DNA of 64,000 nt from assembly GCA_036388415.1 (NCBI GenBank), contig DASVRW010000002.1:479396-543395 (forward strand), given 5' to 3'. Positions 3,230-18,134 of the stretch are shown in pieces; the stretch's first letter is position 1, and each line of letters opens with the position of its first letter. The DNA is from Candidatus Saccharimonadales bacterium. Its GTDB lineage: Bacteria; Patescibacteriota; Saccharimonadia; Saccharimonadales; UBA4665. The notes below the pieces were generated by a model. That model was not told the origin of the DNA and did not search any database. It was given only the letters and a program-made list of their open reading frames with translations. The position numbers and the translations under genes are program-made.

Positions 3230-3910
3230 TTATATATCACTCCTCGGGTAATACTGACTGCGCGCCGGACCTTGACATTCGACTGAAACCTGTAAGTTAT
3301 ATGCGGATTTTGAAGAAGCTATTCTGTTCGGAGGCGCTCCGTTTAAAGAGCTATAATAGTAGTAGACAATAAAACAGATACGCATGTTAGTAGTTGAGCC
3401 TGCGAACGTATCGCTGACAACTTTTACGTCCTGGGTTTTTGGTGTTTCCGAATAGAACAAACCGGGATCAGTAGAAAGCTTATCACCGATAAGATCTTTT
3501 CTTTGAGCAAGTGAATCGTGCACCCTGTTCGTCATCATCTCTACCGCTTGCGGACTGCTTGCATCGTATATAAGGGCACGTCCAACATGGCAACTTAATG
3601 GTCCGGCTTTCAATTTTTGATGAGGTGCGCTACATCCACGGATAGATTCTGAGGACAACGGACTGCCAAGCTCTTGTTCTATCGCAGCGCTTACCTTGCT
3701 TGTATAGTTAAACGTTTCTTCAAAATTATTTAACTCGATAGTATTTTTGATTCTATTAGTTACTACTACAGACACGACTAATAACAGAAGGCTAACAAGT
3801 ACTACATAAATAATTCTTCGAGAAATGCTACCACGTTTACGATATGAACTTAATTCCTTCGTCTTTGTATGTGTTGAAGTAATTTTAGGCTTTTTTATCT
3901 CAGCAGTCAT
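3230..3910 (-). CDS. single-pass membrane protein, 226 aa
   Basis: An unrecognised protein with a basic cytoplasmic N-terminus (about 30 residues), a clear transmembrane segment near residues 33-51, and an external domain with three or four cysteines (contexts RGCSAP, LSCHVG, VECQGP) that may form disulfides. A TAGCAT hexamer lies 7 nt before the ATG. Its topology resembles the other N-anchored exported proteins in this window, but I see no sequence relation. Codon use is AT-rich. Confidence 0.6.
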   Translation of the reverse strand: MTAEIKKPKITSTHTKTKELSSYRKRGSISRRIIYVVLVSLLLLVVSVVVTNRIKNTIELNNFEETFNYTSKVSAAIEQELGSPLSSESIRGCSAPHQKLKAGPLSCHVGRALIYDASSPQAVEMMTNRVHDSLAQRKDLIGDKLSTDPGLFYSETPKTQDVKVVSDTFAGSTTNMRICFIVYYYYSSLNGAPPNRIASSKSAYNLQVSVECQGPARSQYYPRSDI

Positions 3911-4804: not shown

Positions 4805-7765
<2,961 letters not shown>

Positions 7766-10935: not shown

Positions 10936-10973
10936 CATGAAAAAAGCCGGTCAGATGACCGACTCTTTTCATG
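10936..10973. terminator. hairpin with A/T arms
   Basis: CATGAAAA/TTTTCATG outer arms enclosing CGGTC-AGAT-GACCG. It looks like an intrinsic terminator and contains the nominal ATG of the following HTH gene. Confidence 0.6.
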
Positions 10974-11411
10974 GTGGCCCTAACGGGGACGAGTTCGAGG
11001 CAACGTACCGTGATCGCTCGTGTCTTTGCGTTACTGGACGGGCCGAGAGCGTCTCTGCGACGTGCTGGCGCGGCGGTAGTAAGTCAGCCGCAGCGACGGC
11101 TCACCGAGCTGGAGGCGGCTGAGCTGGTTGCTGACTACATGGTCGGCGCCACCATGCAGCAGCTTGCAGTCAGCTGGAAGTTGCACCGCACGACTGTGAC
11201 CGAACACTTGCGACGTGCCGACGTGCACATGCGTCGCCAAGGCATCCCAGCTGACGAGGCATCTGTTGTGGCTGCGCTGTACGCGCAAGGCTTGTCATGC
11301 GCCCGTATCGGAGCACGTTATGACTGTGATGGTGAGACTGTCCGACAGGTTTTGCTCAAGGCCGGAGTGCGACTTCGGGCACCTTATGAGCGCCGAGTAG
11401 AGGGGTTTTGA
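10971..11411 (+). CDS. HTH DNA-binding protein, actinobacterial recombinase C-terminus type, 146 aa
   Basis: Residues 44-140 form two tandem helix-turn-helix units (LTELEAAELVADYMVGATMQ... followed by RTTVTEHLRR; and ASVVAALYAQGLSCARIG... followed by ETVRQVLLKAGV). From memory this matches the C-terminal DNA-binding region common in actinobacterial serine recombinases; the catalytic resolvase domain is absent. The ATG at 10971 lies inside a terminator-like hairpin and has no ribosome-binding site, so the gene may be a 5'-truncated remnant. GC-rich Arg/Ala codons contrast with the neighbours and suggest transfer from an actinobacterium, plausibly a host cell. Confidence 0.65.
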   Translation: MVALTGTSSRQRTVIARVFALLDGPRASLRRAGAAVVSQPQRRLTELEAAELVADYMVGATMQQLAVSWKLHRTTVTEHLRRADVHMRRQGIPADEASVVAALYAQGLSCARIGARYDCDGETVRQVLLKAGVRLRAPYERRVEGF

Positions 11412-12927: not shown

Positions 12928-12952
12928 TTTTGGTGGGTGATGAGGGACTCGA
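12928..12952 (-). repeat. att-like direct repeat within tRNA-Val (proximal copy)
   Basis: Identical to 10783-10807. It spans the T-loop 3' side, acceptor 3' strand, CCA and four bases beyond, the region commonly used by tyrosine integrases. Confidence 0.75.
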
Positions 12953-13007
12953 ACCCCCGACCCTCTCGGTGTAAACGAGATGCTCTAGCCAACTGAGCTA
13001 ATCACCC
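12931..13007 (-). tRNA. tRNA-Val (anticodon TAC)
   Basis: A complete tRNA with encoded CCA: acceptor GGGTGAT/ATCACCC, D-stem GCTC/GAGC, anticodon stem TCTCG/CGAGA with loop TTTACAC (anticodon TAC), T-arm GGGGG-TTCGAGT-CCCTC. Its 3' end is duplicated 2.1 kb away, marking it as an integration site. Confidence 0.95.
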
Positions 13008-13080: not shown

Positions 13081-13086
13081 TATAAT
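13081..13086 (+). promoter_or_regulatory. -10 box of the LAGLIDADG gene
   Basis: TATAAT with 8 nt to the ATG at 13095, implying a start of transcription at or within 2 nt of the start codon. Confidence 0.5.
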
Positions 13087-13094
13087 ATAAGTAC

Positions 13095-13769
13095 ATGCGA
13101 TATGCCCCAAAACGAGTATATACCTGGTCTGCAGATACTGCGTACTGCGTCGGGCTTATTGCCAGTGACGGCTGTTTGTCAAAGGACGGCAGGCATATCG
13201 ACCTTACGTCAACCGACATCGAACAACTCAATAATTTTTGTACGGCATTGCGACGAGATATACCTGTTGCATCCAAATCCAATGCTAGCTCTACGCCTGC
13301 CTACCACCTACAGTTTAGCGATGTCGCCTTTTACGATTTTTTACTGGCTGCTGGTCTAACGCCTGCGAAAAGCATGACAATCAGCAGCGTGAGCGTGCCT
13401 GATGAATTTTATCGTGATCTTTTACGGGGCATCCTTGACGGCGACGGCTGTGTCCGCGGCTACATGGACCCACGCTGGACGAATAGTTTAATGTTTTATA
13501 CTGAATTCGCCTCGGCCAGTCCGCAATTTATTCAATTTATACGTGATAAAAATGTGGAGCTTTTCGGAGTTACAAAAGGCTCTGTACATCAGTCGCCAGG
13601 CGTGCAAACGCTGAGGTACGCTAAGAAAGATAGTATTAAGCTTGCGTCTGCGCTGTACTATGCCGATACAGCAGTATCACTGTCGCGTAAACGACTAAAG
13701 CTTCTCAACTTTGTAAAACAACATGAGGCTGCTATAATTGCACGGAACGCGCGAGTGGCGGAATGGTAG
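13095..13769 (+). CDS. LAGLIDADG-family homing endonuclease, 224 aa
   Basis: A site-specific endonuclease-like protein with both dodecapeptide motifs: AYCVGLIASDG (residues 16-26) and LLRGILDGDG (109-118), each ending in the acidic catalytic position, so it should act as a monomer. Length and the two-repeat layout fit. It is free-standing, between tRNA-Val and tRNA-Leu, not inside an intron or intein. Its last seven codons, ending VAEW-TAG, lie in the 5' part of the tRNA-Leu gene (21-bp overlap). The TATAAT 8 nt before the ATG suggests a leaderless message that could read through into the tRNA. It might instead be a WhiA- or DOD-type derivative, but no extra domain is present. Confidence 0.8.
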   Translation: MRYAPKRVYTWSADTAYCVGLIASDGCLSKDGRHIDLTSTDIEQLNNFCTALRRDIPVASKSNASSTPAYHLQFSDVAFYDFLLAAGLTPAKSMTISSVSVPDEFYRDLLRGILDGDGCVRGYMDPRWTNSLMFYTEFASASPQFIQFIRDKNVELFGVTKGSVHQSPGVQTLRYAKKDSIKLASALYYADTAVSLSRKRLKLLNFVKQHEAAIIARNARVAEW

Positions 13770-13834
13770 ACGCGTTAGCTTGAGGTGTTAATGTTCGCAA
13801 GGACGTGGAGGTTCAAGTCCTCTCTCGCGCACCA
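13749..13834 (+). tRNA. tRNA-Leu (anticodon GAG)
   Basis: A class II tRNA with encoded CCA. Acceptor GCGCGAG/CTCGCGC, anticodon stem TTAGC/GTTAA with loop TTGAGGT (anticodon GAG), a long variable arm around TGTTCGCAAGGACG, and T-arm GGAGG-TTCAAGT-CCTCT. The first 21 bases also encode the end of the upstream endonuclease. Confidence 0.93.
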
Positions 13835-13843
13835 CATAATTTA

Positions 13844-13869
13844 CCTTAGCTTCATGGCTAAGGTTTTTT
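13844..13869 (+). terminator. terminator of tRNA-Leu(GAG)
   Basis: CCTTAGC/GCTAAGG stem followed by six T residues, 10 bp after the tRNA. Confidence 0.85.
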
Positions 13870-13959: not shown

Positions 13960-15597
13960 CTAGCTTCGTGGCAAATGGTCGTACAAATGCTCCATGCTGT
14001 AGTGGGTGCGCACCATTCCCTTGAGGTCTTCCATAGTGACGCCAACTTTGACACCGGGGTTCAACGTGCCATATGGGTCGCATATCTTTTTGACCTTGAG
14101 AAATAGCTCGTAGGCATCGTGGCCATAGACTTTGTCGAGGTACGGACCGCGCAGGCGGCCATCGTTGTGTTCGCCGGACGTAGAACCGCCAAGTGATAGT
14201 ACCAGGCTGTAATACTCGTCCATTATTCGAAAGGCCAGTTGCCGGTCACCAATTTGGCTGAGATCAAGGAACGGCTGCATGTGCAGGTTGGCATCACCGG
14301 CGTGGCCCCAGAGCGCGACCTGCAAGTGGTTTTTAGCAAATATACTATAGACGCCGTCAACATATTCCTTGAAACGGTTGAGTGGCACGACGCCGTCCTC
14401 AATGATGGGTACCGCTTTCTTGGCGCCCACGCTATGCGCGACAACTGCGGCTGACGCATGACGGATCTTCCATAGCTTTTCCTGCTTCAGCGGGTCTGTT
14501 TCCTCGATCAGCTTGGCGGCAGTTTGCTCCAGCACCTTACGTACCTGCTTGGATGTCTTTTTGCGGGCTCGATCACTGTTTTCGTCACACTCGACCAGCA
14601 AAACGACTTTTGGAAACGGCATTTCGATGACGTCTTTCAATTGATTGGGATTAGCTTGCTGGACAAGTTGCAAGAGATGCTCGTCGACCATTTCTATGGC
14701 ACTCGGTGCGCTGTCATGGCGCTTTAGTTCCAGTACCGCCGTCTGGGCGGCGTCCATGCTATCAAAACTGGCGACAAATAGCGTTGTGACTGGATTATGC
14801 ACTTCTGTTTCGAGCGTTACTTCACTGACGATACCAAGTGTACCTTGGCTGCCGACAAATAGTGGCGTCAGGTCAAAGGTGCCGTCGCGGCGCTTGATAT
14901 CGAGCAGATTGTAGCCAGCGACGTTTTTGGACACAGATAAAATCAAGTCGTCGAGCACTTGCTTGTGCTCCTCAAGTAATCCGTCAAGTGCGCGGTAGAT
15001 TTCACCTTCGAACGTAGCCAGACCAAGCTTTTTGCTGAGTTCTTTTTTGCTCAAACGGTAAGTTTCGATGACCTCGCCGTTGGCGAGCACGACGCGGAGC
15101 GAACGGACATAATCCAGTGTAGCGCCGTATTTGACCGTTTTTTCACCGCTGGAATTATTGGCAACTGCACCACCAATGGTGCAATATTCATAGCTGGCTG
15201 GAAACGGCGGCAAAAAGCGGCCGTGAGTATGCAAGGTTTGCTGCAAGCGGCCGTAGTTTATACCCGGCTCTACTACAACAACGCCGGTTTTATTGTCAAA
15301 TTCAATGATGCGGTTCATGTGAGCTGGCATTGCCATGACAATGCCAGTGCCGAGCGCCGCCCCGCTTTGGTCAGTACCCGAACCGCGGGCTGTAATCGGT
15401 ATGACACGGCCACGCTCGGCGAGCTGCCAGGTAAAGCGGGCAGTCTTACGTATATCATTTTCATTCTGCGGATACACCACCATCAAGGGTAACAATGTGA
15501 AAATACTACCGTCTGTGGCAAAATAGCGCCGGGCATCGGCACTGGTCATAACTTCACCCGTCAAATGATCCTGCAGATAGTGTGCGATTTTACTCAT
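13960..15597 (-). CDS. FAD-linked oxidase, D-lactate/glycolate dehydrogenase type, 545 aa
   Basis: A flavoprotein that would oxidise a 2-hydroxy acid and pass electrons on. The N-terminal PCMH-type FAD-binding domain (about 40-275) carries ITARGSGTDQSGAA and the flavin-binding SYEYCTIGGAVANNSSGEKT region; the C-terminal FAD-oxidase domain (about 275-520) carries WGHAGDANLHMQP (substrate His) and SGEHNDG. No C-terminal iron-sulfur domain (as in YdiJ) is present, and no GlcE/GlcF partners adjoin it. A GAGAGG precedes the ATG. The substrate cannot be told from the sequence. Confidence 0.88.
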   Translation of the reverse strand: MSKIAHYLQDHLTGEVMTSADARRYFATDGSIFTLLPLMVVYPQNENDIRKTARFTWQLAERGRVIPITARGSGTDQSGAALGTGIVMAMPAHMNRIIEFDNKTGVVVVEPGINYGRLQQTLHTHGRFLPPFPASYEYCTIGGAVANNSSGEKTVKYGATLDYVRSLRVVLANGEVIETYRLSKKELSKKLGLATFEGEIYRALDGLLEEHKQVLDDLILSVSKNVAGYNLLDIKRRDGTFDLTPLFVGSQGTLGIVSEVTLETEVHNPVTTLFVASFDSMDAAQTAVLELKRHDSAPSAIEMVDEHLLQLVQQANPNQLKDVIEMPFPKVVLLVECDENSDRARKKTSKQVRKVLEQTAAKLIEETDPLKQEKLWKIRHASAAVVAHSVGAKKAVPIIEDGVVPLNRFKEYVDGVYSIFAKNHLQVALWGHAGDANLHMQPFLDLSQIGDRQLAFRIMDEYYSLVLSLGGSTSGEHNDGRLRGPYLDKVYGHDAYELFLKVKKICDPYGTLNPGVKVGVTMEDLKGMVRTHYSMEHLYDHLPRS

Positions 15598-18050: not shown

Positions 18051-18134
18051 TGGTGCGGATGAGAGGACTTGAACCTCCACGCCTTGCGGCACTAGTACCT
18101 GAAACTAGCGTGTATACCATTTCACCACATCCGC
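18051..18134 (-). tRNA. tRNA-Leu (anticodon CAG)
   Basis: A class II tRNA with CCA. Acceptor GCGGATG/CATCCGC, anticodon stem CTAGT/ACTAG with loop TTCAGGT (anticodon CAG), variable arm TGCCGCAAGGCG, T-arm GGAGG-TTCAAGT-CCTCT. Confidence 0.93.

Follow-up and report, generated by a model that had tools for sequence, protein, structure and literature searches.

In a bacterial genome of 1.14 Mb in 2 contigs, whose closest named relatives are Candidatus Saccharibacteria, we analyzed a 64,000-nt stretch of DNA (the window) in which a free-standing LAGLIDADG homing-endonuclease gene (HEG) lies between genes for tRNA-Val(UAC) and tRNA-Leu(GAG) and ends inside the latter (Table 1). The initial annotation of this locus had described the arrangement in these terms and was correct to the base, its "seven codons" of overlap being six sense codons and a stop. 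The 21 nt shared by the two genes (GCG CGA GTG GCG GAA TGG TAG) are nucleotides 1-21 of the tRNA, which, as had been proposed, supplies the stop codon of the HEG. The tRNA-Leu is intact and the HEG is a stand-alone open reading frame; no intron or intein host for it was found in the window, and in an Rfam scan of the window only tRNAs reached the gathering score. A good candidate promoter for the tRNA, of sigma-70 type, lies within the HEG reading frame and ends 10 nt 5' of the tRNA, and a terminator-like hairpin follows, so that tRNA-Leu(GAG) can be made without a HEG transcript. A single transcript shared by enzyme and tRNA, as the annotation had envisaged, is thus not required. Farther away in the window (10971-11411) is a small HTH-type open reading frame (family F12) that has a counterpart at the matching site of G002, a genus-mate that also carries the HEG.

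Table 1 Features of the HEG locus and its surroundings, in window positions.
Feature	Position	Strand	Remarks
tRNA-Val(UAC), native neighbour	12931..13007	-	ARAGORN and Rfam
TATAAT, possible HEG -10 box	13081..13086	+	ATG about 8 nt further (nearly leaderless)
Free-standing LAGLIDADG homing-endonuclease gene (HEG)	13095..13769	+	ATG start, 224 aa plus TAG
LAGLIDADG motif 1, YCVGLIASDG	13143..13172	+	Acidic residue D25 invariant in 60 relatives
LAGLIDADG motif 2, region of LLRGILDGDG	13419..13448	+	D115/D117 invariant in 60 relatives
Sigma-70-like tRNA promoter, TTGTAA-16-TATAAT	13711..13738	+	TG before; inside HEG reading frame
Overlap of HEG 3' end and tRNA-Leu 5' end	13749..13769	+	TAG stop in tRNA D-loop
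tRNA-Leu(GAG), read as carried replacement (rescue) tRNA	13749..13834	+	ARAGORN and Rfam
Terminator-like hairpin 3' of tRNA-Leu(GAG)	13843..13864	+	
FAD-linked oxidase-like gene	13960..15597	-	Conserved native neighbour on the other side; empty-site anchor
tRNA-Leu(CAG), native control tRNA	18051..18134	-	Matches genus-mates, unlike tRNA-Leu(GAG)

The window protein matches the Pfam domain LAGLIDADG_3 (PF14528, E=1.2e-7), which was found in 59 of 60 family members; a few relatives match LAGLIDADG_WhiA, and NCBIfam contained no specific family for the HEG. Its AlphaFold model has a pLDDT of 93.5 and a pTM of 0.90, with the tail encoded by the tRNA as the sole poorly predicted part. Foldseek returned 88 PDB matches at E≤0.001, and the matches listed were LAGLIDADG endonucleases, maturase or WhiA. 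The best match, ahead of I-AniI and other LAGLIDADG proteins, was I-Tsp061I (PDB 2dch), which is the closest solved structure (profile E=6e-14, fold E=8e-11) but differs in being archaeal and intron-encoded, with 17% identity in the structural alignment. By its two motifs, conserved acidic residues and predicted fold, the protein is a LAGLIDADG homing endonuclease, and would be expected to cleave DNA.

Relatives of this protein are sparse in the order to which the host belongs, with only 10 of 295 genomes having one at E≤1e-8. A wider scan of one genome per species added 80 loci, in Patescibacteria, Rokubacteria, Omnitrophota, Myxococcota/Deltaproteobacteria, Elusimicrobia and others. In viral contigs just two remote homologues were detected, both away from tRNA genes. 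Among the 75 relatives with at least 250 nt of downstream sequence, a set that includes the two viral loci, a tRNA gene starts on the same strand beside the end of the HEG in 69, and this tRNA is tRNA-Leu in 66 (isoacceptors GAG, CAG, CAA, UAA, UAG and AAG). Of 700 other open frames at these loci, only 28 adjoin a tRNA, so the adjacency of HEG and tRNA is not due to chance. Orthologues away from tRNA genes, which the initial annotation had said would speak against it, were thus almost never seen. Within the order, orthologues adjoin tRNA-Leu(GAG), with a divergent tRNA-Val(UAC) behind the HEG where this could be read; one (G134) sits elsewhere. In G139 the HEG is a pseudogene.

The overlap itself is less constant than the adjacency. 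The HEG runs into the tRNA in 33 of 63 intact relatives, its stop codon falling anywhere from 31 nt before the tRNA start to 127 nt inside the tRNA. A survey of orthologues for the same overlap, which the annotation had suggested, thus recovers it in many cases, but about half of the family, including the Saccharibacterial orthologues G024 and G034, stop before the tRNA. The window reading frame does run in; the earlier ending seen in some relatives, also named in the annotation as counter-evidence, means that the overlap is a common but optional feature of the family and not an essential one. It is best read as incidental compaction.

Some relatives have other neighbours. Two (L137 and L138), on the deepest branch of the midpoint-rooted tree, are docked 5' of tRNA-Asp(GUC) with an overlap of 10-15 nt, and one (L102) is docked 5' of tRNA-Phe(GAA), also with an overlap of 10-15 nt. 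At a rearranged locus (L111, 4001-4737), the HEG is followed by tRNA-Leu(UAG) on the opposite strand and is preceded by TGGTAAACGCTATATG, which resembles the upstream element described below.

In a maximum-likelihood tree of the family, the isoacceptor of the docked tRNA tracks the HEG and not the host, with 9 label changes compared with 22.3 for shuffled labels. The Leu(UAA) HEG clade covers Myxococcota, Elusimicrobiota and Omnitrophota, and the Leu(CAG) HEG clade is one group. Clades sorted by tRNA isoacceptor rather than by host are the pattern expected of a mobile enzyme that is specific for a tRNA gene.

We then compared genomes with the HEG (carriers) and without it. In HEG-less Saccharibacteria, tRNA-Leu(GAG) leads directly into tRNA-Val(UAC) on one strand. 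Carriers that have both tRNAs at the locus keep the same flanking genes, but their tRNA-Leu is flipped and the HEG lies between the two tRNAs. The annotation had predicted that relatives lacking the HEG would have tRNA-Val joined to tRNA-Leu; they are indeed closely joined, but in tandem, and the tRNA-Leu of carriers is both flipped and different. Within the window genus, the tRNA-Leu(GAG) genes of the window itself (carrier G000) and of a HEG-less member (G004) are 78% identical, compared with 94% for their tRNA-Leu(CAG) genes. The usual acceptor sequence in Saccharibacteria, GCGGA[CT]G, was found in none of 9 carriers but in 27 of 38 non-carriers (Fisher p=1.2e-4). Where the flipped arrangement occurs without a HEG, five of six genomes (L016, L032-L035) have the carrier-type acceptor, as expected if the HEG was lost there. 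The D-stem class was dropped as a marker of carriers, since alone it fails to separate them from non-carriers (GCG/CGC in 15 of 40 GAG carriers and in 31 of 44 non-carriers, the latter a sample biased by the search pattern). Saccharibacterial non-carriers were mostly found with a pattern demanding the D-loop/D-stem core, which biases comparisons of the D-stem but not those of the acceptor and anticodon stems. The case for a tRNA swap thus rests on the acceptor stem, whole-tRNA identity, synteny and the within-locus comparison of tRNA and mimic given below. On this basis, the tRNA-Leu(GAG) of carriers in the window genus is foreign and inverted in place, and their tRNA-Leu(CAG) is native.

In the window the foreign tRNA stands beside the HEG, and no displaced fragment of the native tRNA was found there. 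The suggestion in the initial annotation that the HEG could insert without damaging the tRNA therefore holds insofar as the host retains a tRNA-Leu(GAG), but this tRNA has not been left untouched: a flipped and different replacement comes with the gene. In G134, the HEG-tRNA-Leu(GAG) unit occupies the usual site of tRNA-Leu(CAG). The same locus (L068) contains, at about 7380-7470, a 3'-truncated tRNA-Leu(CAG) whose first ~65 nt are identical to those of an intact copy (7593-7679) lying ~200 nt further on.

Native, carrier and HEG-less states can all be seen in Collierbacteria. In G368 and G373, the native tRNA-Leu(GAG), GCCGAGGTGGCGAAATGGTAGACGCACTACCTTGAG..., lies behind tRNA-Gly. In the carrier G360 the order is tRNA-Gly, GCCGAGGTGGCGAAATGGTAGACGC, TATTACCTTGAG..., the HEG, a different and complete tRNA-Leu(GAG) (GCGCGGGTGCTGTAATGG...) and tRNA-Val. 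Here, GCCGAGGTGGCGAAATGGTAGACGC matches the native tRNA of G368 and G373 at 25 of 25 nt, so that the first 25 nt of the native gene are stranded upstream of the HEG. Two further genomes, G367 and G371, have a tRNA-Leu(GAG) of the second kind found in G360 and no HEG. The gene upstream in G360 is 73% identical to that of G367, 75% to that of G368 and 80% to that of G370, whereas for the tRNA-Leu/tRNA-Val block the identities are 95% with G367 and 81% with G368. A block close to that of G367 beside a gene that is no closer fits lateral movement of the block. Genomes that have the altered tRNA but no HEG may have been cured of it or, less economically and in part, could represent a state before the HEG arrived. 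In G370 (L236), tRNA-Gly leads straight into tRNA-Val, and the tRNA-Leu(GAG) that separates the two in relatives is missing from this place and may have been lost or moved.

A mirror image of the G360 locus is found in Rokubacterium G303, where a second tRNA-Leu lies downstream of a HEG-tRNA-Leu-tRNA-Ala unit and its identity to a related tRNA-Leu starts at nt 24. This 5'-truncated tRNA-Leu(CAA) (L207, about 3537-3600) is again followed by tRNA-Ala, and an open frame separates the unit from the remnant. The remnants in G360 and G303 meet near nt 24-25, at the end of the D-stem. The combination that characterizes gene hybrids formed by fungal mobile ORFs (mORFs), a foreign copy of the target beside the HEG with the native part displaced, is thus present in G360, and G303 has a truncated native tRNA. 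The proposal that the HEG takes a tRNA gene as its target is, in light of these comparisons, very probably right. With a HEG beside its presumed target gene and a carrier allele that differs, the family is one of free-standing HEGs of the kind that home without an intron, the tRNA gene being the putative site of cleavage.

The region upstream of many Patescibacterial HEGs contains a sequence, AATTGGTA(G/T)ACGCTATNNNCTTGAGG, that copies tRNA-Leu from the D-loop to the anticodon loop and that we call the mimic. A motif search detected it in 23 of 82 HEG upstream windows, with 0.04 expected from a background of 1.13 Mb of surrounding sequence. A profile HMM built from the tRNA-Leu 5' halves of non-carriers reached at least 5 bits in 15 of 79 upstream regions, compared with 0 of 79 reverse complements, 1 of 79 reversed sequences and 1 of 790 shuffles, and pairwise alignment in search of remnants of the tRNA's own 5' half gave 6 clear cases among 68. 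The anticodon of the mimic is that of the downstream tRNA wherever a tRNA was called (GAG, CAG, UAG). The two differ in length, with 21 nt from GG to the anticodon in all 22 mimics and 20 nt in all 20 tRNAs of the same loci, and in the core GGTA[GT]ACGC, which 21 of 22 mimics have and 20 of 22 carried tRNAs lack. Mimics also have a conserved GCTAT, have lost the acceptor part at most loci and, from our reading of the sequences, lie at or just upstream of the -10-like boxes of the HEGs. In G360 native sequence extends to nt 25 and mimic-type sequence lies beyond, which may illustrate how a mimic can arise or recombine.

No mimic could be seen in the Leu(UAA) and Leu(CAA) clades. The window and the carrier genus-mate G002 have lost any recognisable mimic, with only a plain -10 box some 8 nt ahead of the ATG. 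Furthermore, HEG-less members of the window genus have GGTATACACGC in place of the ancestral GGTAGACGC core, so the target is not directly readable there and it is uncertain what the window enzyme now targets.

The mimic could simply be what decay has left of the split native tRNA, without any part in regulation, a reading that we consider quite plausible, if somewhat short of even odds. It would account for the 25-nt match in G360 and for the acceptor-stem sequence also retained at this locus (L077) and at L078. However, the constant 21-nt length in 22 of 22 mimics from several phyla, the conserved GCTAT, the location at or beside the HEG -10 box and the missing acceptor part at most loci suggest that the mimic has been maintained or co-transferred and has not simply decayed. 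The mimic is probably the left homology arm of the element. It is perhaps also an uncuttable operator through which the HEG would repress itself, by analogy with the I-TevI system discussed below: the extra base at its centre should spoil the spacing of LAGLIDADG half-sites, so that the mimic may be bound and not cut.

Taken together, the docking to tRNA-Leu, the tRNA swap, the native, carrier and HEG-less states, the mimic and the shift of isoacceptor with HEG clade are best explained by a mobile cassette of a HEG and a recoded rescue tRNA-Leu that homes, intronless, on native tRNA-Leu genes. We put the probability of this reading, drawn from sequence comparison, at roughly three in four. The enzyme would cut the native gene at about tRNA nt 25, close to where the D-stem ends, around the junction of D-stem and anticodon stem. 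An insertion site in the anticodon loop was our first hypothesis and gave way to this junction in view of the mimic and of the G303 and G360 remnants. Repair from a carrier chromosome would then transfer the HEG and the recoded tRNA-Leu jointly, the mimic supplying left-hand homology, and the native tRNA-Leu would be lost or left as a fragment. Since the carried tRNA is recoded around the junction, we propose that it is no longer cut, which would leave the host with a tRNA and protect the element from its own enzyme. Compaction, in the form of the overlap and of the tRNA promoter within the HEG reading frame, would keep HEG and rescue tRNA linked, and later decay and deletion of the HEG would leave the recoded tRNA behind. 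The inversion of tRNA-Leu in Saccharibacteria is unexplained by this cycle and counts against it.

It is unlikely that the HEG instead targets intergenic DNA 5' of tRNA-Leu as a safe harbour, with the tRNA an unaltered host gene whose differences reflect drift. Such insertion would suit the half of the family in which the HEG stays outside the tRNA, as well as the Cys-HEG-Leu(UAA)-Val arrays, in which only 9-14 nt separate tRNA-Cys from the HEG and no remnant is seen. It does not fit the foreign acceptor stem found on the target tRNA only and absent from Leu(CAG), the native 5' half stranded in G360 ahead of a different tRNA, the truncated native tRNA of G303, the flipped tRNA in Saccharibacteria or the specificity for tRNA-Leu despite intergenic sequences that differ between phyla. 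We similarly doubt that the overlap was selected as a coupling device, in which maturation by RNase P removes the HEG stop codon and makes tRNA maturation and HEG translation mutually exclusive. The geometry, shared by 33 of 63 intact genes and entered in the same frame at six Saccharibacterial loci, would allow this, but about half of the family has no overlap, the window tRNA has its own promoter inside the reading frame and the tail is not confidently structured. Least probable is a domesticated WhiA-like protein that regulates or processes the adjoining tRNA-Leu with the mimic as its operator, an idea in keeping with the WhiA structures and LAGLIDADG_WhiA matches, the operator-like position of the mimic at the promoter and the long-kept reading frame, but at odds with sporadic presence (10 of 295 genomes), pseudogenes (G139), HEG clades spanning different phyla, the persistence of the tRNA in HEG-less relatives and invariant acidic motif residues.

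A broader proposal, to which we give about an even chance, is that a natural, multi-phylum home-and-rescue family cuts native tRNA-Leu genes, brings along a tRNA-Leu recoded to be resistant and represses itself by way of a promoter mimic that is off by one base, and that its repeated visits have replaced core tRNA genes in Patescibacteria and beyond. If true, linked cassettes of nuclease and recoded rescue exist naturally on an essential and highly conserved RNA gene of bacterial chromosomes, and the swapped and inverted tRNA-Leu genes of small-genome Patescibacteria are explained. It would also show a free-standing HEG living on an essential target without an intron, with an unusually readable presumptive target, in that native tRNA, immune tRNA and mimic stand side by side in one locus. 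Our searches of the open-access literature turned up no account of a bacterial LAGLIDADG family linked to tRNA-Leu.

Among known systems, the free-standing endonucleases of T4-like phages, for example SegB in a tRNA cluster and SegG/MobE, are similar in being encoded by intergenic HEGs that target an adjacent gene, with SegB lying between tRNA genes (PMC2988022). Some T4 HEGs, like the window HEG, contain the promoter of a downstream essential gene, and such embedded promoters are known to favour HEG retention (PMC2988022). However, the T4 enzymes are GIY-YIG or HNH rather than LAGLIDADG proteins and cut hundreds of bp from the insertion (PMC2988022), whereas the present gene overlaps its putative target gene; the present family also has a travelling replacement tRNA and resides in bacterial chromosomes across phyla. 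Autorepression by I-TevI uses a promoter operator that resembles the homing site and is uncuttable through altered spacing (PMC2988022); here the enzyme is a LAGLIDADG protein, the operator role is conjectural and the spacing differs by +1 nt at the putative cleavage centre. Fungal mitochondrial mORFs form gene hybrids in Allomyces atp6 and in Glomus atp6, atp9, cox2 and nad3, with a LAGLIDADG or other ORF in an essential gene, a foreign part that restores the gene and a displaced native part (PMC3630166). These affect mitochondrial protein genes and their 3' ends (PMC3630166), in contrast to the bacterial setting, whole downstream tRNA and promoter mimic described here. Engineered Cleave-and-Rescue and home-and-rescue drives likewise pair a nuclease against an essential gene with a linked, recoded, uncuttable copy, but are synthetic CRISPR systems in sexual animals (PMC7951863, PMC7968924), whereas the present element would be a natural meganuclease acting on a tRNA gene. 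The family is a kind of free-standing HEG with which T4 HEGs, mORFs and engineered drives each share a part.
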